DNA from: Phycisphaerales bacterium
Lineage (GTDB): Bacteria > Planctomycetota > Phycisphaerae > Phycisphaerales > UBA1924
Direction: 5' to 3'
Assembly: GCA_040221175.1 (NCBI GenBank)
Contig: JAVJVK010000007.1
Coordinates: 1-64,000, forward strand
DNA: 64,000 bases
A program made the translations under genes and the position numbers. The notes beneath the pieces were generated by a model. The model saw nothing but the letters and a program-made list of their open reading frames with translations, was not told the origin of the DNA and made no database searches. Below, one piece after another: positions 37,536 through 54,770 of the stretch (the stretch's first letter is position 1; each line of letters opens with the position of its first letter).

Positions 37536-37758
37536 TTTTCTCTGGCACCTCCTGGATCGCACAAGTTGATTGGCAACAAGAACTTGTCAACGGCGCGGCG
37601 CAGCGTGTTCGTAAACTGCACGCATGTGGGAGCAAATTTCCTGCGCCGGTGCTGAATCGCGACAGGGGTGGGTTCCCAAAGACTCTTGATACAGAGAGCC
37701 GGCACGAGGTGGCGCCGGGCGGAGAAAACAGTGTGCGGCTCGGCCGGGAGGTGTGCCC
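37536..37758 (+). other. Leader region of the Tol/Ton-like operon
   Basis: This 223-base region has no gene. It must hold the promoter of the operon at 37759-44784. No unambiguous -35/-10 pair was seen; the ribosome site GGGAGG lies at 37747-37752. Confidence 0.4.
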
Positions 37759-40700
37759 ATGCGCGCCCTGCTCACGATCTCGGTAGTGGTCCTGTGCTCG
37801 CACGCCTTGATCGCACAGGACGGCGATCGGGCCCTCCGCACGGCAAATGGCCTGTTGCAGCGAGGGTTGCATGCCGAGGCGGCCAGTGAGTACGCGGCCG
37901 CCTTGCAAACGCTCGACAACGCCGACGCGCGCGACGAAGCCCGCTACGGCCTGGCCGTCGCTCGATACAACATGGGCGAGGATGCAGCGGCGATTCGAGC
38001 GCTCGAACAGATCGAGGGCGGCCCGCGTTTCGCGTTTCGGGCGGATGCCGACGTCCTGCTCATGCATCTCCATTTCCGTCAAGAGGACTACGCACGTGCC
38101 GCTAGTTCGGGCCGGGCCGCGGCAGGCCATCGCGACCATGCCGCCTGGGCTTCGACCGCGGCGCTCTTGATCGAGAGCCTCCACCGCGCGGGCGAGAACG
38201 CCGACGCCGTGCGAGCGTATACCCGATTCGAGTCGGACCTCCGTCGTGACGACCAGGCCCACCGGCGAGCGTCGCTGTTCGCGGGCATATCCCAGGCCAC
38301 GATCGCCAGGAAGCCAACCGAGCACGCGACTGCTGCGGAGTGGCTCGGGCGAGTCATCATGCCGCGCGGGCGCGACGGACTGACCGACGCAGCCCTGTTC
38401 CACCAGGCGAACGCCCTCTATGCGGCCGGCGATGCCGCGGGCGCGATCGCGAGCCTCGAGCGAGCATCGGTCGATGCCTCGACGGTCCGGCCGCAGGCGA
38501 TGCTCAGGCTCGCCGTCATCCTGCGTCTGGAAGCAAGACCAGGTGAAGCCGCCAACGTCCTGCGCGTACTTGCCGAACAAGCGCCTCGCTTCAGCACCGC
38601 TCAGGTGCACTACGAGCTTGGTCGCGCATTGCTGGACATCGACCAGCCCGAAGAAGCGATCCGGGCATTCGAACGGTCAGAACGACGAGCCGACCCAGAT
38701 CTCGCTGATGACGTCGCGTTCTGGCATGCAAAAGCTGCGCTGCGCCGCGGTCGCCATGAAGAAGCCGCCGAAAGGCTTCGCCTCGCGATCAAGCAACACC
38801 CGACGAGTCCTTTGATCGCCGAGATGAAGTACGACCGGGCCATCGCGCTGCAACGCGATGGTCAGCCCGAAGCCGCGGCACGGGCCTTCGGCTTGTTCGT
38901 TGCCGACCACGGCGACCATCCACTGGCGCCCGACGCTTTGTTCTCGCAGGCCTCGCTCCTGCTTGAGGTCGATCAGGTCGATGAATCAGCCGGTGTTGCT
39001 CGCAGTCTTAGCCGGCAGTTTACGGATCACCCGCTCGCGTCCAGCGCGGCATTCCTGCAAGCCGAAGCGGCCTATAGAAGCAAAAACTACGAGGCCGCCG
39101 CGCGCGGATTCGCACCGCTCGTCGAGGCGGACGATGATTCGCTGGCAGACCAGGCACGCTTCCGCCTGGGCATGTCCTTCCTCGCAATGGGTCGAGCAGA
39201 CCAGGCAGAGCCCCACCTGGAAGCCGTCGTCGACGGCGTGCGCACGCAGCCGGCGTTCGTGCCCGCGCTGTTCGCCCTTGGGGATATTGCCTTCGACGCC
39301 GAGCAATGGGAACAGGCCGAGTCGCGTTTTGCCGAGTACATCGCCGTGGCCGGCACTCAGGCTGCGAGCGTTGACGCCGCAATGCTGAAGCTGGCACTGG
39401 CCCGCGGTCGGCAGGGTGACACCACGGGGGCCATCGAGTCTCTTACGCAGATGCTGTCCGAGTGGCCTCACAGCGAGCACGCCCCGCATGCATTGTTCGA
39501 GTTGGGCCAGATGCACGTCGCGCAGGGCAACGATCAGGCGGCACGACGATTCTTCACGACGCTGCCGGACCGCCACGAAGATTCACGCTTCGCCCCGCAT
39601 GCCCTTCGCCACCTCGCCGGCATCGCCGCACGATCCGGCGAGCACGAGCGTGCGGCGGGCCTCTATGCACAGGCCGCCGACCGCGGCGGGCGACCAATGG
39701 CACGCATCGTGGCGCTGGACCACGCCAAGGCCCTGATCAACGCGGGCGAGCCCGCGCAAGCGGCGCGGCTGCTTCACGATGCCGAGGGACCCGCACGCGC
39801 CTGGTACGTCATTGCGCTAAGCCGATCGGCAGACCATCAAGCCGCCGTCGACGCGTCCGAGGACTACACGCCGCGCGATCTGGGCGAACAGGACACGGCG
39901 CTCTACCAGTACGCACTGGCAGCCAGCCTCCGCAACACCGGCCAGCGCGAGCGAGCCACACGCATGCTGGAACAGGTCGTTGCGGGTGGGTCATCCGTCG
40001 CACCGCATGCCGCCCTCGATCTGGCGGACGCCTACCTGGCCGATGCGGACTACGCCCGCGCAGCCGATCTCCTCGAGCCCGTGTCGCAGCGCACCGACGT
40101 ACCAACCACACTCGCCAGCGCCGCGACGTACAAGGCCGCATGGGCCCGCTACCAGTTGAACGACCATCGAAGCGTCGTACGGCTGCTGCAGGACTTCAAC
40201 GATGACGCGCTCGCCGGACCCTCGGCCCTGCTGCTGGGCGAATCGCTCCTGGCCCTCAAGCGGGGCCGCGAAGCGGCCGAACAGCTTGCACGCGCGATCT
40301 CGGCCGGCGGGCAAGGCGTCGACGCCGACGCGGCACTCCTTCGGCTGGGCGAAGCCCACGCCGCCGCCCAAGACTGGAACGCGAGCCTCGAGGCATATGC
40401 ACGGCACCGCCGCGAGCACGCCCGATCTCCCCGATGGTTCATGGCCGAGTTCGGCCTGGGTTGGGCGCTCGAGAACGCCGGCAAGCATCGGCAGGCGATA
40501 AACCACTATCAGGCCGTCGTCGACAAGCACGAGGGCGAGACGGCTGCCCGCGCCCAGTTTCAGCTGGGTGAGTGCCTCTTCGCCCTGGGCCAACACGAGG
40601 ACGCCGTGCGCGAGTTGCTCCGCGTCGACATCCTGCATGCTTCGCCCACCTGGAGCCCCGCCGCCCTCTTTGAAGCCGGCCGATGCTTCGAAGCCATGGG

Positions 40701-40836
40701 CAAGGTGGGCGAGGCCCGAGCACAATACCGCGCCGTGCAGGATCGCTTCGCCGAGAGCTCATGGGCGACGGCCGCCGGCGAACGACTCCGCGCCATCGCA
40801 GGTCCGGGCGGCACAGCCAGCGGACGAGGAGGCTGA
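37759..40836 (+). CDS. Large periplasmic TPR protein of a Tol/Ton-like operon
   Basis: The 1025-residue protein starts at ATG 37759, 6 bases after GGGAGG. Residues 1-21 form a signal peptide (LLTISVVVLCSHALIAQD). Nearly the whole rest is made of TPR-like helical hairpins with A-x-x-x-G-x-x-x-x-A patterns, e.g. AEPHLEAVVDGVRTQPAF and AVRELLRVDILHASP. It has the position of CpoB/YbgF in Tol operons but is several times longer. The next gene, exbB, starts 3 bases after the stop, so it is cotranscribed. It probably acts as a periplasmic scaffold (inference). Confidence 0.8.
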   Translation: MRALLTISVVVLCSHALIAQDGDRALRTANGLLQRGLHAEAASEYAAALQTLDNADARDEARYGLAVARYNMGEDAAAIRALEQIEGGPRFAFRADADVLLMHLHFRQEDYARAASSGRAAAGHRDHAAWASTAALLIESLHRAGENADAVRAYTRFESDLRRDDQAHRRASLFAGISQATIARKPTEHATAAEWLGRVIMPRGRDGLTDAALFHQANALYAAGDAAGAIASLERASVDASTVRPQAMLRLAVILRLEARPGEAANVLRVLAEQAPRFSTAQVHYELGRALLDIDQPEEAIRAFERSERRADPDLADDVAFWHAKAALRRGRHEEAAERLRLAIKQHPTSPLIAEMKYDRAIALQRDGQPEAAARAFGLFVADHGDHPLAPDALFSQASLLLEVDQVDESAGVARSLSRQFTDHPLASSAAFLQAEAAYRSKNYEAAARGFAPLVEADDDSLADQARFRLGMSFLAMGRADQAEPHLEAVVDGVRTQPAFVPALFALGDIAFDAEQWEQAESRFAEYIAVAGTQAASVDAAMLKLALARGRQGDTTGAIESLTQMLSEWPHSEHAPHALFELGQMHVAQGNDQAARRFFTTLPDRHEDSRFAPHALRHLAGIAARSGEHERAAGLYAQAADRGGRPMARIVALDHAKALINAGEPAQAARLLHDAEGPARAWYVIALSRSADHQAAVDASEDYTPRDLGEQDTALYQYALAASLRNTGQRERATRMLEQVVAGGSSVAPHAALDLADAYLADADYARAADLLEPVSQRTDVPTTLASAATYKAAWARYQLNDHRSVVRLLQDFNDDALAGPSALLLGESLLALKRGREAAEQLARAISAGGQGVDADAALLRLGEAHAAAQDWNASLEAYARHRREHARSPRWFMAEFGLGWALENAGKHRQAINHYQAVVDKHEGETAARAQFQLGECLFALGQHEDAVRELLRVDILHASPTWSPAALFEAGRCFEAMGKVGEARAQYRAVQDRFAESSWATAAGERLRAIAGPGGTASGRGG

Positions 40837-41583: not shown

Positions 41584-41997
41584 ATGCTCATCGGGAAGAA
41601 ACAGGACGAGGCAGGCCCGACCATCGAGATGACGCCGATCATTGACATGGTGTTCCTCCTGTTGATCTTCTTCCTGGTTGCCACCACGTATCAGCAGAGC
41701 GAGCGGGAACTGGCAATCGCCCTGCCCGAAGCCGAGGCGGCCGGCCCGATCACGACGATGCTTCGCGAAATCATCATCAACGTCGATGCCACGGGCCAGA
41801 TCATCGTCGGCGGACAGAAGCTCGAACTCGAAGAACTCCGCTCGCTCGTAGGCGACGCCGTCCGCGTGAATCCCGACCAGAAGGTTTCCGTGCGCGGCGA
41901 CAAGGACATCAGCTATGGCGCCATCGCGCGCGTCCTGGACGTCTGCAAGGCCGCGGGCGTGCAGCAGCCCTTCCTCGATACGGTGCCGCTGGGGTAG
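41584..41997 (+). CDS. exbD: ExbD/TolR biopolymer transport protein
   Basis: The 137-residue protein has a short cytoplasmic tail, one membrane helix with the proton-carrying Asp21 in MTPIIDMVFLLLIFFLVATT, and a periplasmic domain with IIINVDATGQIIVGGQKLEL and DKDISYGAIARVLDVCKAAG. Length and motifs fit ExbD/TolR. It lies 3 bases after exbB and 3 before the fusion gene. Confidence 0.94.
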   Translation: MLIGKKQDEAGPTIEMTPIIDMVFLLLIFFLVATTYQQSERELAIALPEAEAAGPITTMLREIIINVDATGQIIVGGQKLELEELRSLVGDAVRVNPDQKVSVRGDKDISYGAIARVLDVCKAAGVQQPFLDTVPLG

Positions 41998-42000
41998 CCC

Positions 42001-44784
42001 ATGCCGTCGCGTTCAAGATTCATCCTGACCGTGCTGGCTCTTGGAGCGCTGGTGTGCAGCGTCATCGCGGCATGGTGGTGGTTCGACGCCGACCACCGAT
42101 CGTTCTACACCGATGACGCCTCCATCCGGCAGTATGCAGCCGCGGCTCCCGTGCGAGACATCCTGTGGCGCGAGCCAGAATCACTGCAGAGCTCGGCAGG
42201 CGAAGTCATTGTGGGGCGAGATCCCTTCGTATCGGCCGAAGGCGATGTCCTTCTGCTCACGCGGCAAAGCGATGCGGGCGACACGGACCTGTTCATCGCC
42301 AGCCGCGTGGGAGACGCGTGGACCCAGCCACGTCCAATGGGCGAATTGAACACCATCGACAACGAGTTGTCGCCCGCGCTCTCTGCCGATGGTCAGAGGC
42401 TGTACTTCGCCTCGGATCGTCCCGGCGGCGCGGGGGGGCTCGATATCTGGATGTCGGTCCGCCAGGGCGATCTCTGGGGTGAGCCCACGCCGCTGGCTCT
42501 CAACTCCAGATTCGACGAGACCGATCCCCACCCCTTGATACAGCGCGATGGGGTCGAAGGCGTGCTGTTTGCATCAAACCGTCCGCGTGCCAGCGAGGTC
42601 GTCGGCGAGGAGCGAACTGACTTTGATCTCTACCTCGCCCAACTCGACCAGAGCAGCGTTCGCCACCTGGCCGAGTTGTCCAGCCCGGGCGCAGATGCAG
42701 GGCCCGCCGTAGCCCCGGCCGGCGACTTCGTCTACTTCACCTCCGATCGCGAGGGCGGAACGGGCGGCCACGATCTCTATCGCGCGCGACTCCACGACGA
42801 CGGAGTACTCGGCCCCGTCCGAACGCTGGGACCATCGATCAACACGGCCAACGATGAATTCGCGCCCTCGCTCTCGCTCGAAGGCTTTGCAATCCAGTTC
42901 GCCACGACCCTGCACGGCGACTCGATCATTCGCCGCGCGGTCTCGCGAGAGGTATACCTCGCGCGGAGCACGACCCGCGGCGATCTGCTCTCGCTGCTGC
43001 CATGGATCCTCATCGCATTGGCCTTCGTCCTGGTGCTCGCGATGCTCCGTCGGGTGGTCCGCAATGCGCAGTGGCAGGCGCGCATCGCCACGCTCGGGCT
43101 CATGGCCAAGTGCGCGCTGGTCAGCCTTTTAGTCCACGGCGGCCTGCTGGCATTGCTGGCCGCGATGCAGGTGCCGCCAAGCGCCGGCCCGCCGGAGGGC
43201 GACAGCCAGGGCCTTCGCGTCGCCCTCTCGTCGTCCGCCGTGCGTTCATCGATCAGCGAACAGATGCACGGCTCGTCAGCCCCCGCCACGCTCGAACAGG
43301 CATCGCAGCCTTCTACCCCAGCGCCCGCCGCGTCGATGTCGTCTCCCAGCGTGACCCAAAACTTCCAGCCCAATCGAACCCAGACGCCGATTGATCGTCC
43401 AATGCGCCCCTCGACACGAACGAGCGAGAGCGCACCCGTCGATTCGCATGCCGAAGCTACGCAGGTCGATGTATCGATGACGATCGAGGCGCAGCCACCC
43501 GGTCCGAGCCTCGCTCTTCCAGAGGCAGTCCCGGCACAGCCACTCGCACACGCCGAGGAAGGCATCCGGGCCCCCGCGCAGGCAGCAACCGCGTCGGCAA
43601 CGAATGGCACAGACATCGAGGCTGCCATCGAGCCCAGCCTCGTGCGACTCGACGCAGCCCGATCGTTTGCCGGCGATGACACACGCCTTGCTTCCTTCAC
43701 AGCGCCGAGCGACACATCGCCACGGGACGACGCGTCTGCCGGTTCGATGGAACTGCCCGGCATCGACCTTCCACGGCTGGAAGCCGCCACGCTCTCACTT
43801 GCGACACCAACGACCGGCGAGAGCGCAACGCTCGTCCACGAGCCCGGCATCGAATTGCCACGGCCCGCTTCCGATTCGCCAGACGCGCCCCCCGACATCG
43901 CCGCCGGCGACGTTCCGCTTCCGTTGACCGAGATTGATCCCAAGGCCGACCGACCAGAGATCGCACCGGCCGCACTCACGTCCACGATCTCCGAATCCGC
44001 GCCCGGCGAACAGTTGCCCGAGGCCGTGCCCACGCTCGACCTTCCCGTATTGGCGTTCGATCCGCCCCAGGTGCGCCTGCCCGAGGAGGTCGCCCATCGG
44101 TTCGAGCTGCTCGGCATCGTGATCGATGCCCAGTCCGAAGCGCCGCTTCCGGGCGCACGCGTCCGGCTCGACCTGGAGGGCACGGCCGACCTCTCGGCAA
44201 CCGCACGGGACGACGGCACGTTCGCGCTCGGCTTCGATCAGATCCCCGACAACGCCGCGCTCACTGCCACGCACGAGGGCTATACCCCCGGCGCGGTCAA
44301 CATCGCCCAGAGAGACCTGCATGCAGGCCGACGCGTCGTCGTTCGGCTGCGCAAGATCGATCCGTTTGTCATCGTCATGGAAGACGAGCCCGAGGTCCAT
44401 CACCTTGGCAACGACGAGTTCAGCGGCCGCATCAACAGCCAGTTCCAGCGGCGTAGCGAGGGCCTGGTGCTGCAACTGCCATTCGAGATGACCGAAGCCC
44501 ACGCAAACCTCCCGCTCCGCGGCGCCGAACTCCGATTGTTGGTCAAGGGCACGCAGGCCCCGAACCCCGTGCGCATCAACGGCAGGCAGATCGCAACGCT
44601 CGCGCAGTCGCCGAGCAACGGCGGCTTCGGCGAGCAGATCATCTCGATTCCCTCCGGCGTGCTCCGGCTTGGGGAGAACGTGCTCGAGCTCGAATCCGTC
44701 GCTCGCCCCGGCAGCGACAAGGACGACTACGAGTTCGTGAATCCCCGTGTCGTTCTTCTGGTCAACGAGGACGCGCCCATCTGA
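42001..44784 (+). CDS. Fusion of a TolB-like PD40 domain and a TonB/TolA-type energy transducer
   Basis: The 927-residue protein has an N-terminal helix (about 8-27), a periplasmic PD40/TolB-like beta-propeller (about 60-320; ALSADGQRLYFASDRPGG and GDFVYFTSDREGGTGGHDLY), a second helix (about 328-350) and a third (about 366-390). The third contains Ser375-x3-His379 in LVSLLVHGGLLALL, the S-x3-H signature of TonB/TolA anchors. A Ser/Pro/Ala-rich disordered region (about 395-695) resembles the TonB/TolA spacer. The C-terminus has a carboxypeptidase-regulatory-like beta-sandwich (about 700-785) and a last domain to 927. Directly after exbD, it is probably driven by ExbBD. Single unbroken frame. 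Confidence 0.8.
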   Translation: MPSRSRFILTVLALGALVCSVIAAWWWFDADHRSFYTDDASIRQYAAAAPVRDILWREPESLQSSAGEVIVGRDPFVSAEGDVLLLTRQSDAGDTDLFIASRVGDAWTQPRPMGELNTIDNELSPALSADGQRLYFASDRPGGAGGLDIWMSVRQGDLWGEPTPLALNSRFDETDPHPLIQRDGVEGVLFASNRPRASEVVGEERTDFDLYLAQLDQSSVRHLAELSSPGADAGPAVAPAGDFVYFTSDREGGTGGHDLYRARLHDDGVLGPVRTLGPSINTANDEFAPSLSLEGFAIQFATTLHGDSIIRRAVSREVYLARSTTRGDLLSLLPWILIALAFVLVLAMLRRVVRNAQWQARIATLGLMAKCALVSLLVHGGLLALLAAMQVPPSAGPPEGDSQGLRVALSSSAVRSSISEQMHGSSAPATLEQASQPSTPAPAASMSSPSVTQNFQPNRTQTPIDRPMRPSTRTSESAPVDSHAEATQVDVSMTIEAQPPGPSLALPEAVPAQPLAHAEEGIRAPAQAATASATNGTDIEAAIEPSLVRLDAARSFAGDDTRLASFTAPSDTSPRDDASAGSMELPGIDLPRLEAATLSLATPTTGESATLVHEPGIELPRPASDSPDAPPDIAAGDVPLPLTEIDPKADRPEIAPAALTSTISESAPGEQLPEAVPTLDLPVLAFDPPQVRLPEEVAHRFELLGIVIDAQSEAPLPGARVRLDLEGTADLSATARDDGTFALGFDQIPDNAALTATHEGYTPGAVNIAQRDLHAGRRVVVRLRKIDPFVIVMEDEPEVHHLGNDEFSGRINSQFQRRSEGLVLQLPFEMTEAHANLPLRGAELRLLVKGTQAPNPVRINGRQIATLAQSPSNGGFGEQIISIPSGVLRLGENVLELESVARPGSDKDDYEFVNPRVVLLVNEDAPI

Positions 44785-48244: not shown

Positions 48245-50941
48245 TCAGCAGCCGGCGGCAAACTCGTTCTGGAAGGCCAGGAAGTCGAAGATGTCCAGCG
48301 TGCCGTTGCCGTCGAAGTCGGCCGAGGGGTCGCCGGCTCCAAAGGCATTCTGGAAGGCCAGGAAATCGAAGATGTCCAGCGTGCCGTTGCCGTCGAAGTC
48401 GGCCCGGCAAGCCGAGCCGCCATCGACGATGATCCGGAACGCATCGACGCCGGCCTCGGTCACCGAGTCATTGGGGGTGTCGTTGGCCACGAAACGGACG
48501 CGGAACTCGCTGGTCACGTCGACCACGTCCGACACGCGCACCGAGACCTGCACCCAGCCCGAAGGATCGTGCGAGGTGAAGTCGGCGCCCGACCAGGTCA
48601 GGCCGCCGTTGTCCGAGAACTGCACCAGGAAATCATCGGTCACGCCGTTGACGCTCTGGAACCAGCGGGCGTAGGAGACGATCGCGTCGCCATAGGCCGA
48701 AAGATCGAACTCGGGACTCACCAGGATGGTCGGCCCACCGTCGACGTCACTGTTGCCATCGACGTTATCGGTCACCCAGGCCTGACCCGAGCCATCGAAG
48801 TCGGCGGGCGGATCCTGGCGATCGCCGCCACCTGCGGGCACACCGCGATCCCATGCGCCATCGGACAGCGACGTGGACTCGACAGTCCACCCCGCGGCGG
48901 TCTCGAAGTCGAACGACACGAATTCCTCGCCCACCAGCACCGGGAAGCCGCCCTCGGAGGGAACCCGAACGGTGTCGCCCGTGTCGGCATCGGCCGTCAC
49001 GAAGTAAGCAAGATCGGTCAGCCCGGGCTGACCGGGAATCGTCGCGACGTACTCGTCGCCATCGGGCGTAAGCGACACCATCTGCGTGTCGCCGTCGATG
49101 ATCAGGCCCAGCATCTCCGTTCCCGCCACGAGGCCGGCAGTCGATTCCTCGATGCGCACCCGCACCTCGGCGCTCTGACCGGGCAGCAACTGTTCGGGAG
49201 CGTCGGCGATGCTGATGCTCAGCAGGTCCAGTTCCGGGCAGTCGATGCCGTGGCGATCGAAGGCCATGCAGATCGGCGCGTAGTTGGGCGTGCCGTTGCC
49301 GATGATGCCATCGTCATCGTCGACCGTCAGCACTTCGATGGCCGTCCGCGGCGTCGCCGAATCGCTTCCGTCGCCGCCCAGCGTGATCATCGACCACGCC
49401 ACGAACAGGTCCTGGGCACGCTCGAGCGCGGGACCCGAGCCAAGCGTGTCGCTCATGTTCAGACGGATCCAACGCCACGAGCCGCCAAGCACCTGCCCGC
49501 ACGTGTGGATCGCCGAGCCGCAGGGGTACTGCTGACGCGCTGCCTCGGGGTTTCGCACCGCTCCGCCGCCGACGAAGAAGCCCTGCCCCATCACGCCCGT
49601 GTCGTACAGGTTGATGGCCACCGAGTCGCCGTAGCCCTCGCCGAATGCACCCTGGGTGAGGCCGAGACGGTTCACGATGAAGTGCCCGTACTCGTGGGCC
49701 ACCACCGATGAGAACGCGGTGTTCACGCAGCTGCCCGCCTGACGGAAGAAGTTAATCGACAGATCACGCGAATCAAAGAACGCGTTGCAGCTGTCGTTGA
49801 TGTTCACGTAGGCGTCGGTCTGGCGATCGAGCCCCGTGAAGCCAGGCGCCCGGCTCTTCATGAAGTCGTACGTCAGGTTGGTGTGCAGGAACGCGTTCAC
49901 CTGCGCGGTCGTGAACTGTGCGGGGCTCGGGTTGAACAGCAGTTCGGCCGGGCCGGGAGGCGTCACCATGTCGCTGGCGGTAATCTCCGAACCAGCGGTG
50001 TCCGTCACGGCCACCCACGGACCAACCAAAGCACCCTGCACCGTCACCGACGATGCGCCGGCGTGCGGAATCACGAAATCGCCGTTCAAGTCGCTCGTCG
50101 CGCTCGCGCCACCCGAGATCATGACCTGCAGCAACGGCAACCGCTGCGACACCGGCGGATTGCTCGTGGTGTCGGGCAGGATGCCCGGCGTCGCCATACC
50201 ACTGACCGTGCCCTCGACGTCCACGTGCGACACCGTCGACTGCACGAGCAACTGCTCGCCCGTCTCGGCGTCAACAAACACCTCGTAAGCCTGATCCACG
50301 ATCGGGAAGCTCGCGTGCTCGGCCGTCACGCGCCATGCCGGACGGGTCTGGCCCGACTCCACGCCATCGCCGCCGTGGAAGAACGCCACGAGCTCCGGCT
50401 GGCTGAAGTTCACGAAGTTCATGAAGCGAACATCGTCCCGCACCGATGCCACGGCTTGGTCGGCCGTAAGGAACACCGAATCACGCAGATCGCCGTCGGT
50501 GTTCTGCGCCAGCTTGCCCGAGGCATAGACCACGGCGTGATCAACGCCGCGATCGAGCACCAGCACGCGACCCACGCCCAGGTGCACCGGAAGGCCATCG
50601 ATCGTCTGGTTGAACAGGAACGCCGTGAACTTGCCGTCGCGAACCTCGGTCTGGTGCGCCAGCTCCAGCGTCAGCTCACCAACGCCGAACTCCGAGCCGT
50701 GCTGCGCGAGGAAGTCCATGGCCGCCTGCTCGGCCGTCAGCCCCGTGGTCATGGGCACGCCATAGAACGCCTCGATTCGCCCCGCCTCGTGCTCGAGCGT
50801 GCGAACGCCCGGATACGCCTCGGCCAGGCTGTCGCCGATCACGATGACGTCGTCGGCCGATGCCGACGCCACGGCCATCAATCCAACGCCAAGACCGGCC
50901 ACCAGTCGAATAGCAACGGCGTTCTTCTTACTTCCTCGCAT
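48245..50941 (-). CDS. Secreted zinc metalloprotease with dockerin-like module
   Basis: The 898-residue protein starts at ATG 50941 after GGGAGG. It has a signal peptide (about 1-28), an FTP-like/propeptide-like region (about 30-250), and a catalytic domain with the gluzincin motif H416-E-Y-G-H420 in VVAHEYGHFIVNR and a probable third ligand in GEGYGDSVAI, resembling the M36/fungalysin group. Downstream (about 660-840) are a jelly-roll-like region (FDFETAAGWTVES, WYARWFQSV-type strands) and the terminal 54-residue Cys-bracketed dockerin-like module. It is secreted; the substrate is unknown. Confidence 0.85.
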   Translation of the reverse strand: MRGSKKNAVAIRLVAGLGVGLMAVASASADDVIVIGDSLAEAYPGVRTLEHEAGRIEAFYGVPMTTGLTAEQAAMDFLAQHGSEFGVGELTLELAHQTEVRDGKFTAFLFNQTIDGLPVHLGVGRVLVLDRGVDHAVVYASGKLAQNTDGDLRDSVFLTADQAVASVRDDVRFMNFVNFSQPELVAFFHGGDGVESGQTRPAWRVTAEHASFPIVDQAYEVFVDAETGEQLLVQSTVSHVDVEGTVSGMATPGILPDTTSNPPVSQRLPLLQVMISGGASATSDLNGDFVIPHAGASSVTVQGALVGPWVAVTDTAGSEITASDMVTPPGPAELLFNPSPAQFTTAQVNAFLHTNLTYDFMKSRAPGFTGLDRQTDAYVNINDSCNAFFDSRDLSINFFRQAGSCVNTAFSSVVAHEYGHFIVNRLGLTQGAFGEGYGDSVAINLYDTGVMGQGFFVGGGAVRNPEAARQQYPCGSAIHTCGQVLGGSWRWIRLNMSDTLGSGPALERAQDLFVAWSMITLGGDGSDSATPRTAIEVLTVDDDDGIIGNGTPNYAPICMAFDRHGIDCPELDLLSISIADAPEQLLPGQSAEVRVRIEESTAGLVAGTEMLGLIIDGDTQMVSLTPDGDEYVATIPGQPGLTDLAYFVTADADTGDTVRVPSEGGFPVLVGEEFVSFDFETAAGWTVESTSLSDGAWDRGVPAGGGDRQDPPADFDGSGQAWVTDNVDGNSDVDGGPTILVSPEFDLSAYGDAIVSYARWFQSVNGVTDDFLVQFSDNGGLTWSGADFTSHDPSGWVQVSVRVSDVVDVTSEFRVRFVANDTPNDSVTEAGVDAFRIIVDGGSACRADFDGNGTLDIFDFLAFQNAFGAGDPSADFDGNGTLDIFDFLAFQNEFAAGC

Positions 50942-51360
50942 GGAAATCCTCCCCTGTTCTCGGGATGTGGGTTGCATCGCCGGTGGCGCCCGACTCGGGC
51001 CAGCGCCGCACGCGGTCGATTCGTCCGGCAACACGGATTCACCGGCAACCAGACGAGAACTGTTACAAGTTTGCCAGAACGCCCGTTACGAGCCATTGTG
51101 ACGCGCGAACGCACCACGGGCCACGCCAAAGCACGCCCAGGCGCCAGATTCCCCGCCGACGCCCGCATAGACGTCAATATCCGAGACCCGTCCGCATAAC
51201 CCCCACCCATCCGCGGATGGTCTACGTTGCAAAAGCTCGGGAATCCCAACATGTCGAGCACCGCCGGATAAAAAAGCAAGGAGCCGCCCTCCTCAGGCGG
51301 CCCCTTCGCGACATCGGATGCGGGCCCGAACGAGCCCGGGCTCCGACAGGGATCAGAAAC
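50942..51360. other. Intergenic region with a terminator and protease leader
   Basis: These 419 bases hold no gene. The terminator of the subtilase lies at 51270-51304. The remainder must hold the metalloprotease promoter, but no clear pair of promoter boxes is seen. Confidence 0.5.
51270..51304 (-). terminator. Intrinsic terminator of the subtilase gene
   Basis: On the minus strand GGGGCCGCC pairs with GGCGGCTCC (9 bp, one G-U wobble) and is followed by TTGCTTTTTTA. It lies about 55 bases past the stop at 51361. Confidence 0.85.
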
Positions 51361-54300
51361 TCAGCAACCCGCGGCGAACTCGTTCTGGAACGCCAGGAAG
51401 TCGAAGATGTTCAACTCACCGTCGCCATCGAAGTCCGCGGCCAGATCACCCGACGCAAAGGCGTTCTGGAACGCCAGGAAGTCGAAGATGTCCAGCTCGC
51501 CATTGCCATCGAAATCGGCCCGGCAACCGGTGCCGTCGTCGCAGCGGAAGCCACGCACGCTGACCGCATCCACCGACGCCTCGGTCGCCGAGTCGTTGGG
51601 GCTGTCGGCCACGCTGAAGCGCAGCTGCACCGCGTTGGTCAGGTCAACGTAGTCGGTGACGGCGATCTCCATCTCGGTCCAGTCCTCGCCACCGGCGGCG
51701 TGGTCGACCGACTCGATGGTCGTCCAACCCGTGCCGTCGGTGATCTCGACCAGCAGGCGATCGTTGTCGGTCAGGCCCGCACGCTGATCGTCGTTCCAGA
51801 ACCAGCGGGCGTACCGCAGGGTCACGTCAGCCGGAGCACCGGCCAGCAGGAATACCGGCGACGTCAGGATCGTCGGACCACCGTCCACGTCCTCGCCGCG
51901 CTCGTTGCCGGTCACGAAGGCCTGGCCCGAGCCATCGAAGTCGTTGTCCGGAGCGCCGCGGAAGCCATCGGGCGTGCCCAGCTCCCAGTCGCCGCTGATG
52001 GTCGTGCCCGACATGTTCCAGCCGGAAACGGTCTCGAAGTCGAACATGCCGTAGTCCAGGTCCTCACCGATGCGATCCACCGTGTAGGGACCATCGGCGC
52101 CCAGGGCCGGCAGCGTCACCACGGTGCCGCCGTCGCCGGTGACCTCCATGTAGAACGCCGGGCTCGTGCCGCACGTGGTCTCGGGCAGGTCGAAGACCCA
52201 GGTGTCGCCCGAGAGGGTCATGTCGGCGCGGGTGAAGCCCGAGCCGGTCATGTCGTAGTAGATCGACGGCGAGCCGACGAGCATCTCGTCGCCTTCGATG
52301 ACCTCGACTTCGACGTTCAGGGCCGTGCCCGGAAGCGCGATGTCCGGAACATCCGAAACCAGCGACATGCCGATCGCCGGGGTCACGCCAGCAACCACCA
52401 GCGAGTACACCGAGTCGAGCTCGGCCGTCGCGGGATGGCCGTCCTGGTTGATCTCGTCGCCAAGGACCTCCACGGTCCATACGCCGCCCTCGGGCGAATC
52501 GACGAACACGTTCTCGACGTTGTCAAGATCGTTGGGCGAGCCGCCGGGCGTGGAGAAGTTGCCGTTGGTCAGGCCGTTGTTGCCGTAGTACACCGCGCCG
52601 CTGGGCGAGGTCACCTTCAGGGTCAGGTCGTTGATGCGGTGCTTGCTCGACGACGTCGTGCCGCTCGGATCGCGGTACACCATCGTCACGCGCAGATCCG
52701 GCTCGTCGCTGGCGACCTTCAGCGGGTAGCTGTTGGCGCTCAGCGGGGTCACCGGCTGGTTGGCGTCGACGATGAAGAACCGCTCGCGCTCGTCGTAGAG
52801 CTTGCCCACGTCGGCAAGGCCCCAGCCCTGACGCATACGGTTCAGGTCGTCGCTCGAGCTGGCAAAGTCATACTGCAGGCCCGTGTTGATCATCATGGCC
52901 TTGGCCGTGCTCGACACCGGACGGTTCTCGAAGACCGTGCCACCGGGCACCGCCACCGGACCGAACACGCCCTCGTTCCACATCTGGTAGAACAGGCCGA
53001 TGTGGCCGGCGGTAATGGGCGTAGCGCCCGACGTGCCACCGAATTGCGTGTACGACGTGGGCGAACCGGTGGTCGCCGCGATGGTCGAGTCGTAGAAGTG
53101 GCTCAGATCGGGCTTGATGCGCCCGTCCGAAGCCGGACCCGTGCTGCCCGCGCTGCCGCCGTGGCGGTCGTCGGTCCGCGTCAGCGTGCCGAAGTGGTTG
53201 ATGCCACCGACGGCCACGATGTTCTTCGCCCAGGCCTGGGGACGGCTGGGCGTGCTGCCCGAGTTCGACTGGCTCTGGGTAATCGTGATGTTGTGGTCGA
53301 ACAGGATGTCGTCCATCTCGGCCGACACGGTCGTGTAATCAGTCGTGCGAGGGTCGCCCCAGCTGTTGGTCTGGAACACCGCGCGGTACGGGCCCGACGG
53401 ATCGACCAGACGCGCCGTGTGCGCGTAGCGGTCGCCCAGGGCGCCGTACGCCGCGATGATCGTCTGCTCGGCATCGGGCAGGAAGCCGCGAGCCTGCGGG
53501 TTGGTGCCCGGCGCGAACACGATGCTGAACACGCTCGTGCCGTGCGACTGGCTGCCCACGGCGCCGTGCAGCAACGGAGCCGGGCTCATGCCGCTGAACT
53601 CCTGGTGGCTCAGGTACAGGCCGCTGTCCATGACCTCGGCGCGAACGCCCTCGCCGCTGTAGCCGGTCTCGTTCTCGACGTAATCGGCGCCGCCGATCAT
53701 GCGGGCGATGTCCACGTCCGGCTCGGGCTCGCCGCGCACGTCCATGAAGAGCACGTCGCTGCGCTGGGCGACCGCCAGCAGCTGTGCGTCGGTCAGCCAG
53801 GCCTGCAGGCGGCCGACCGGCTCGGACTCCAGGTCGATCGCCGCGCCCATCGCGCGGATGTGCTGTGCCAAGCCCTTCAGCGAACCCTCGCCGCGACGCA
53901 GCGTCTGGATCGAATAACGCTGGAACGTCGTCGAGTCACCCGAACCGCTCAGCGCCAGGCGCTGCAGGTCCGGCTCGTCGAGCTTGTAGGCCGGGTGATA
54001 CTCGCCCACCCACCGCACGAAGGGCAATGCACGAACGGCATCGACCATGCTCTCGTCGATCGTCACGATCTGTGCCTGGTCGGGCAGGAAGCGCTCGACC
54101 GTGCCGCCCAGGCGAGCGATCGCCTGGCCGTACGCCTCGAGCGGCTGGCTGATGTACTGCACGATGAATGCCTGGTTGCCGTCCACGGCCTTGAGCTGAT
54201 CGGGCACCGCCGGAATGAAGCCGGCAGGATCGAACTCGGCATAACGCAGCATGATCGTGCCGCGCTGTTCCACCACACGCTGCTCGGCCCGGCCGTCGAG

Positions 54301-54483
54301 GCTGATTGCCACCATCGGCTGGCCCGCGTCGGTCCACGTCCGGACGTAGCCGTCGCCAACACGAACGGTCTGCGCTTGCGTCGGCTTGGCAAGCTGCTGC
54401 GACGCCAAGGCCAGACCACTGCTGGCCAGCAGCACCGCCGCCGAAGCCGCCATCACCGTCAATCGATTAGTTCCACGCTGCAT
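51361..54483 (-). CDS. Secreted subtilisin-like (S8) serine protease with dockerin-like module
   Basis: The 1040-residue protein starts at ATG 54483 behind AGAGGA. It has a signal peptide (about 1-27), a propeptide-like region (about 30-270), and an S8 catalytic domain with triad Asp286 (AEVMDSGLYLS), His314 (SQSHGTSVFS) and Ser485 (FGGTSGATPI). A proprotein-convertase-like beta domain follows (TVEVLGDEINQDGHP). The C-terminus has strands like the metalloprotease (FDFETVSGWNMSG) and ends with the 54-residue Cys-bracketed dockerin-like module. It is secreted; substrate unknown. Confidence 0.92.
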   Translation of the reverse strand: MQRGTNRLTVMAASAAVLLASSGLALASQQLAKPTQAQTVRVGDGYVRTWTDAGQPMVAISLDGRAEQRVVEQRGTIMLRYAEFDPAGFIPAVPDQLKAVDGNQAFIVQYISQPLEAYGQAIARLGGTVERFLPDQAQIVTIDESMVDAVRALPFVRWVGEYHPAYKLDEPDLQRLALSGSGDSTTFQRYSIQTLRRGEGSLKGLAQHIRAMGAAIDLESEPVGRLQAWLTDAQLLAVAQRSDVLFMDVRGEPEPDVDIARMIGGADYVENETGYSGEGVRAEVMDSGLYLSHQEFSGMSPAPLLHGAVGSQSHGTSVFSIVFAPGTNPQARGFLPDAEQTIIAAYGALGDRYAHTARLVDPSGPYRAVFQTNSWGDPRTTDYTTVSAEMDDILFDHNITITQSQSNSGSTPSRPQAWAKNIVAVGGINHFGTLTRTDDRHGGSAGSTGPASDGRIKPDLSHFYDSTIAATTGSPTSYTQFGGTSGATPITAGHIGLFYQMWNEGVFGPVAVPGGTVFENRPVSSTAKAMMINTGLQYDFASSSDDLNRMRQGWGLADVGKLYDERERFFIVDANQPVTPLSANSYPLKVASDEPDLRVTMVYRDPSGTTSSSKHRINDLTLKVTSPSGAVYYGNNGLTNGNFSTPGGSPNDLDNVENVFVDSPEGGVWTVEVLGDEINQDGHPATAELDSVYSLVVAGVTPAIGMSLVSDVPDIALPGTALNVEVEVIEGDEMLVGSPSIYYDMTGSGFTRADMTLSGDTWVFDLPETTCGTSPAFYMEVTGDGGTVVTLPALGADGPYTVDRIGEDLDYGMFDFETVSGWNMSGTTISGDWELGTPDGFRGAPDNDFDGSGQAFVTGNERGEDVDGGPTILTSPVFLLAGAPADVTLRYARWFWNDDQRAGLTDNDRLLVEITDGTGWTTIESVDHAAGGEDWTEMEIAVTDYVDLTNAVQLRFSVADSPNDSATEASVDAVSVRGFRCDDGTGCRADFDGNGELDIFDFLAFQNAFASGDLAADFDGDGELNIFDFLAFQNEFAAGC

Positions 54484-54770
54484 GTGTCGTCCTCTTCCTG
54501 ATGAGCTGTGGGGTGCCCGAAACACGCCCCCCGGGCATGCACGGCAACGCCGGGCATTCCAGCGTCTACGCCTTGCAATACAACACGCCGGGCCGGTGCG
54601 TAACCGGCTTCGGGGGTTCCTATACAATGGCGGAAAAGCCGCAGAACCACAAGCCCTTTTGCACGGCTTTCGACACCAACCGCCGCACAAACCGGGCCTT
54701 CAGTCCGGATAACCCCGCTCTTCGGTTTTCGATTGGTCCGCATCGAGCCCGGGGCTCAAGATCAACGGAA

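Follow-up and report, generated by a model that had tools for sequence, protein, structure and literature searches.

Williams-Jones et al. (2025, PMC12204202) described vWA transducers, which are encoded downstream of genes for a TPR protein, a TolQ-like protein and paired TolR-like proteins. These transducers have an SHLS helix, their end domain is not of the TonB type, and they include examples from Planctomycetes. The function of the vWA class is called unknown in the available text of PMC12204202. The same text names the SHLS motif for force transducers and describes a motor box after the anchor helix. It also presents PorE, an outer-membrane lipoprotein that combines a TPR, a TolB-like propeller and a carboxypeptidase-type domain. 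The available text deals with vWA transducers and PorE and presents no fusion of a propeller with a transducer, and the word "toroid" is absent from its main text. The protein in this study joins a PD40 propeller to a TonB/TolA-like transducer, and our literature search found no described member with this domain order. An earlier reading of the DNA from its letters alone (the sequence-only reading) had already supposed that no such protein was described, and this held within the literature searched.

The window analyzed here is a stretch of 64,000 nucleotides from a Phycisphaerales bacterium (contig JAVJVK010000007.1). It contains a four-gene unit that encodes a TPR protein, ExbB, ExbD and the fusion transducer (Table 1). 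The four genes are separated by 3-base gaps, and the fusion is a single open reading frame whose ATG lies 3 bases past the exbD stop. The TPR protein matched the tol_pal_ybgF model with 203 bits, above the cut-off of 90.1. The fusion is laid out as TM1, PD40 propeller, TM2, TM3 with S375-x3-H379, spacer, CarboxypepD_reg-like domain (CRD) and beta sandwich. The sequence-only reading had proposed a single-frame fusion directly after exbD with PD40 repeats and a long Ser/Pro/Ala spacer, and all three proposals were borne out. The unit resembles the vWA class in having TPR, TolQ-like and TolR-like genes together with a transducer with a non-TonB end domain. Unlike that class, it has one ExbD instead of a pair, its transducer carries an N-terminal PD40 propeller, and the family ends in a toroid or in the CRD and sandwich. 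A vWA domain was not matched in the 927-aa protein or in the relatives scanned.

Table 1. Features of the four-gene unit and of the fusion transducer in the window.
Feature	Position	Strand	Evidence
TPR protein, 1027 aa, first gene of the unit, CpoB/YbgF-type repeats, signal-peptide-like N-terminus	37753..40836	+	TPR_6 1.4e-42
ExbB/TolQ-type motor subunit, 246 aa	40840..41580	+	MotA_ExbB 9.7e-30
ExbD/TolR-type motor subunit, 137 aa, transmembrane Asp D21	41584..41997	+	ExbD 2.2e-28
Fusion transducer, 927 aa	42001..44784	+	one ORF, also in five same-genus genomes
TM1 (aa 7-25)	42019..42075	+	hydropathy
PD40 beta-propeller (about aa 31-322)	42091..42966	+	PD40 8.1e-16, two stretches
TM2 (aa 329-347)	42985..43041	+	hydropathy; hairpin profile
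TM3 anchor helix (aa 360-392) with C371, S375-x3-H379, V391	43078..43176	+	hydropathy
Pro/Ala/Ser-rich spacer (about aa 393-699), presumably disordered	43177..44097	+	composition
Candidate motor box strand (aa 404-412, GLRVALSSS)	43210..43236	+	V407 21/26; by analogy
CRD, CarboxypepD_reg-like domain (about aa 700-785)	44098..44355	+	Pfam 703-768, 1.7e-6
C-terminal beta sandwich (aa 786-927), CBM-like fold	44356..44781	+	predicted structure

Genes for an FA_hydroxylase and a secreted 599-aa protein lie downstream of the fusion gene in the window and at five loci of the genus. Both are also present at L011, the 599-aa gene alone at L009, and neither at L010, L012 and L013. These two genes are not counted as parts of the unit.

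As a query, the single protein retrieved no relative from genome contigs, where a second query (A5) gave two, and the PDB sequence search returned nothing up to E 0.1. The plasmid tblastn gave one record only, a match of the PD40 region in an Aureibacter OmpA protein. Among 21 genomes (the window's and 20 relatives), the full protein was found as one ORF in five genomes of the genus, and the sixth same-genus relative, G006, had no match to it. The N-module profile gave some match in 44 of 51 genomes of the order and the whole module in only 9, and a profile of the TM2-TM3 hairpin matched 16 of 149 genomes of the phylum, in frames of 925-1547 aa. PD40-only matches were excluded from the family counts in the same-genus and order searches. 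This patchy distribution indicates that the unit is not housekeeping.

The family set comprises 26 proteins that share this N-terminal plan (the window's and 25 others) across the phylum Planctomycetota. The sequence-only reading had named a search for homologues beside exbBD as a check, and such homologues do exist there. ExbD adjoins the fusion at 25 of the 26 loci, ExbB at 24 and TPR at 23; the missing neighbours are confined to L040, L064 and L070, where the contigs stop. The TPR gene of L071 is split over two overlapping frames. The TPR-exbB-exbD-transducer unit, the S-x3-H helix and the motor residues are conserved over the phylum, and the end domain varies.

The propeller of the fusion would be placed in the periplasm by TM1, as judged from the order of the helices. 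The loop between TM2 and TM3 (aa 347-366) contains four basic residues but none that are acidic. By the positive-inside rule this loop is therefore probably cytoplasmic, and TM3 would take the TonB orientation. TM3 consists of two overlapping hydropathy peaks at 360-378 and 374-392. In two MAFFT alignments in which the motif was not used as an anchor, H379 was conserved in 26/26 proteins and S375 in 24/26, with Ala in its place in L068 and L071. C371 (24/26) and V391 (22/26) were also well conserved in these alignments, which were used as evidence in place of a motif-anchored one. Among the columns 340-414 that were identical in at least 22 of the 26 rows, only H379 was identical in all. In the first 13 proteins, S375 and H379 were invariant though identity to the window protein drops to 31%.

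We take the spacing of the SHLS motif to be S+0, H+4, L+11 and S+15. The +11 position is L in 14 of the 26 proteins, F in 10, M in 1 and A in 1. The last Ser (+15, position 390) is Ser in 0/26, with Gln, Glu, Val and others in its place. The motor subunits kept D21 of ExbD at 25/25 loci and T141 and T176 of ExbB at 24/24 loci, which match the known motor residues. A strand-like pattern in the alignment follows TM3, in which V407 is conserved in 21/26 proteins; it is a candidate for the motor box strand.

The spacer of the window protein is 309 aa long and contains 15% P, 16% A and 12% S. Family spacers range from 309 to 651 aa with 7-16% Pro, their ends having been set by hand. The spacer evolves fast: residues 416-695 showed 19-38% identity to six relatives, compared with 42-86% in the TM hairpin.

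The fusion therefore resembles TonB/TolA in its S-x3-H anchor helix, its predicted C-out topology, its long Pro-rich spacer and the adjoining exbB and exbD. It differs from them in the two extra helices and the propeller before the anchor helix, in having no match to TonB_C or the TolA C-terminal domain (Pfam up to E 1), and in the missing final Ser of SHLS; in addition, no receptor plug was found in its genome. The earlier proposal that S375 and H379 couple to the motor in the TonB/TolA manner is well supported by the motif, the topology, the spacer, the exbBD neighbours and the motor residues over the phylum. A full-length model of the protein reached a pLDDT of 35.4 with three usable alignment rows and was not used. 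Another ExbB locus in the window's genome encodes two ExbDs as well as a vWA protein of 320 aa, which has SLLVH in its anchor helix. This separate vWA transducer provides a further instance of the coupling motif from within the same genome.

The two C-terminal beta domains that had been noticed in the sequence were recovered at different levels of confidence. The CarboxypepD_reg match reached 28.7 bits, under the gathering score of 32.3, and the best PDB match of the CRD profile was a weak one to a TonB-dependent receptor (6ytc_A, E 0.022). The second domain is a sandwich in an isolated model of moderate confidence (pLDDT 65.6, pTM 0.64). In Foldseek, its best match was CBM35 2w1w_B at 1.6e-4, but with a TM-score of 0.46. 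The model also matched BcsB 6yg8_D with Z 9.8 over 115 residues and an rmsd of 3.2, where Z of 7-8 can be background, and it resembled GH2 sandwiches. The predicted likeness to CBM, GH2 and BcsB is one of fold, not of function, and no specific family is named.

All 20 relatives outside the window's genus matched a squalene-cyclase-like alpha/alpha toroid of approximately 340 aa, L064 partly; Pfam was run on 13 of these 20 proteins. The toroid profile matched squalene-hopene cyclase (4e-13), pectate lyase (1e-4) and TEP1 (1.3e-4). The window's genus has the CRD and sandwich only. L036, which belongs to the window's order but to a different family, combines toroid, CRD and sandwich, and its last two domains are 39% identical to the window's. 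The CRD was seen in 7 of the 26 members, namely L036 and those of the window's genus (by BLAST, with Pfam on part of the rest). L066 has an additional PDZ. In the tree of the N-module (24 rows, midpoint root, L064 and L070 left out), the six genus proteins formed one clade (100/100) nested in a group of 14 rows (100/100), and the eight remaining rows of that group are all toroid-bearing; the position of L036 is unsettled. Loss of the toroid in the window's genus is therefore the simplest reading. Stand-alone toroid frames of 358-544 aa were found in all 11 genomes searched, whether or not these carry the fusion. The idea that the toroid of the window's genus had split off as its own gene was thus rejected, since a stand-alone toroid that occurs regardless of the fusion seems to be a core paralogue, not the missing piece. 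The sequence-only reading had taken the CRD as a stand-in for the lost TonB/TolA contact domain; this does not hold, as the toroid occupies that place elsewhere in the family. The C-terminus is a lineage-specific swap.

We conclude that the fusion is probably a PMF-driven force transducer of the envelope, TonB/TolA-like in its working but of its own class. The TolB part of the earlier proposal, in which TolB and TolA/TonB were merged, stood only partly. The propeller is a PD40 propeller, and the N-module profile matched 2ojh (1.2e-5) and the TolB structure 6pnv_A (1.6e-5) most closely in the PDB. Against a merged TolB, NCBIfam gave the propeller 96.9 bits for PorE and 94 bits for CHU_0125 (far under their cut-offs of 600 and 620 bits) compared with 30 bits for TolB, and CHU_0125 and PorE again scored above TolB in five relatives scanned. 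The TolB N-domain was not matched in the 927-aa protein (Pfam up to E 1, which gave PD40 and two CRD families only), membrane helices flank the propeller, and PD40 also occurs elsewhere in the genome in separate frames, 464 and 511 aa long. The fusion thus shares with TolB a propeller of the PD40 type, but its propeller is not soluble and is built into a transducer. The models that fit it best are those of PorE and CHU_0125, which are OmpA-like proteins of Bacteroidota. Unlike in PorE, the TPR is a separate gene here, and PorE is not a motor-coupled inner-membrane protein. An OmpA peptidoglycan-binding C-terminus was not matched in the 927-aa protein by Pfam.

These comparisons bear on the possibility of a compact Tol-Pal system, in which the fusion would do the jobs of TolB and TolA, with a CpoB-like TPR and a Pal encoded elsewhere, and tie the outer membrane to the wall. 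A CpoB/YbgF-type TPR, ExbBD/TolQR, a TolB-like propeller and a transducer do occur in one unit, and three OmpA-domain proteins are encoded in the window's genome, one adjoining a MotA/ExbB gene. PorE, a CpoB-TolB-CP-Pal fusion in the available text of PMC12204202, offers a precedent. We nevertheless consider this account unlikely. The protein matches neither the TolB N-domain nor the TonB C-domain, none of the four genes of the unit encodes OmpA/Pal, and the propeller appears fixed in the inner membrane by its helices. The whole module occurs in 9/51 genomes of the order although OmpA proteins were found in 26/26 genomes searched. G006, which lacks a match to the full protein, has four MotA/ExbB proteins, compared with five in each of the other six genus genomes, the window's among them.

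Another reading takes the unit as a wall-damage or polymer-sensing module. A BlaR1-type peptidase and BlaI would switch the unit on, the toroid or the CRD and sandwich would read or process a polymer, and the motor would power remodelling. At 5/7 toroid-bearing loci of the order, the TPR gene is immediately preceded by an M56 gene of the BlaR1 type, and at 4 of these BlaI comes before M56, both identities being confirmed by Pfam; at L035 the fetched stretch ends first. The relatives of the toroid profile, which include pectate lyase and cyclases, fit a polymer-processing role. However, two models built from the found genes detected no BlaI or M56 at the window's locus or at L009-L012. M56 is 4.6 kb away at L013. 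At the remote relatives, the two models found neither gene except at L070, where BlaI adjoins the transducer. We regard this module as an improbable account of the unit.

A TonB-type importer energiser, which would serve outer-membrane receptors through the CarboxypepD_reg domain, is still less probable. The S-x3-H helix and the resemblance of the CRD profile to an extension of TonB-dependent receptors speak for it. We surveyed 26 chosen genomes, 13 with and 13 without the unit. The receptor Plug domain was found in 8/26, and the three unit-bearing genomes among them (G042, G029 and G047; 3/13) agree with an importer. Against it, Plug was found in none of the 16 genomes that belong to the window's family, of which 10 are unit-bearing, and the CRD was seen in just the seven members noted above. 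TonB_C matched in 10/26 genomes but in only 2/16 of the window's family, namely same-genus G003 (a 108-aa frame) and G011, whose match is below the cut-off. As controls, Plug and TonB_C were each found in 3/14 genomes (E. coli, Caulobacter, Bacteroides). Energising of receptors is unlikely because neither TonB_C nor a receptor plug was found in the window's genome, which is 100% complete; TonB-dependent import was thus made unlikely by these searches. Finally, a sequencing or assembly error joining two genes is practically ruled out by full-length, uninterrupted single frames in five same-genus genomes and by those of 20 further genomes, two of which (L064 and L070) end at contig edges.

We therefore return to an envelope force transducer of its own class. 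Alongside TonB/TolA and the vWA class it would, in our reading, make up a third class of transducers driven by the PMF. In such a machine, TM3 probably docks on the edge of the ExbB pentamer through S375 and H379, and the strand at aa 404-412 probably engages ExbD. With its roughly 300 aa, the spacer probably lets the end domain reach across the periplasm. Next to the motor, with TM1 and TM2 on either side, the propeller may serve as a local binding platform instead of a mobile TolB; candidates for its partner are ExbD, the TPR protein and a client. The CRD and the CBM-like sandwich could conceivably bind an envelope glycan or a glycan-bound partner. The motor might pull on or remodel the interface of wall and outer membrane, without energising TonB-dependent receptors.

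More tentatively, we speculate that the family could be a Planctomycetota-wide class of machine with an inner-membrane propeller on a motor and an exchangeable tool. Its ancestral toroid would clamp or process a periplasmic polymer, and the machine would act in wall remodelling, partly under BlaR1/BlaI control, and work without recognisable TonB-dependent receptors. This wider proposal is possible but doubtful.

The four-gene unit and its one absolutely conserved histidine offer a direct genetic test of what motors of the ExbBD type do in these bacteria. The end domains are exchanged while the motor module stays fixed, which suggests a modularity of force transducers that extends well past TonB, TolA and the vWA class.

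The Pfam searches showed that genes for BlaI (PF03965) and a BlaR1-type M56 peptidase head the TPR-exbB-exbD-transducer unit in relatives whose transducer bears the squalene-cyclase-like toroid. The TPR gene of the relative's locus L071 shows up in two overlapping frames, which is perhaps a frameshift.

Coordinates of the features described
Feature	Location	Source
BlaI/M56 leading unit	L014:13593-16808	toroid-bearing relative
BlaI/M56 leading unit	L036:10654-13943	toroid-bearing relative
BlaI/M56 leading unit	L037:2937-6278	toroid-bearing relative
BlaI/M56 leading unit	L038:2126-5592	toroid-bearing relative
M56 leading unit; no BlaI seen, the sequence stretch stopping before its place	L035:9330-11993	toroid-bearing relative
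TPR gene in two overlapping frames	L071:10485-13440	relative
Tandem fusion-like frames	L064:1-6175	relative
Toroid-PDZ family member	L066:5010-9149	relative
Stand-alone toroid match (L080)	C4:890872-891783	window's genome
Second motor locus	L076:7086-10860	window's genome, contig C1
Large proteins with EF-hand/dockerin-like segment	32069-37030; 48245-54690	window

At L064, a tandem pair of fusion-like frames adjoins exbD/exbB. In the second frame (797 aa), propeller matches are accompanied by a helix at the N-terminus and a single late helix. The family member at L066 carries a PDZ domain C-terminal to the toroid. A frame with a stand-alone toroid match was present in all 11 genomes searched; that of the window's genome is 393 aa long.

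The second motor locus comprises ExbB, two ExbDs (Pfam) and a 320-aa vWA protein with an SLLVH anchor helix.

Four large window proteins have a common paired EF-hand/dockerin-like segment as read from the sequence (CRADxDGxGxLxxFDFLxFQNxF); two of them bear it close to their N-terminus, the other two at the C-terminus. These proteins are probably secreted.
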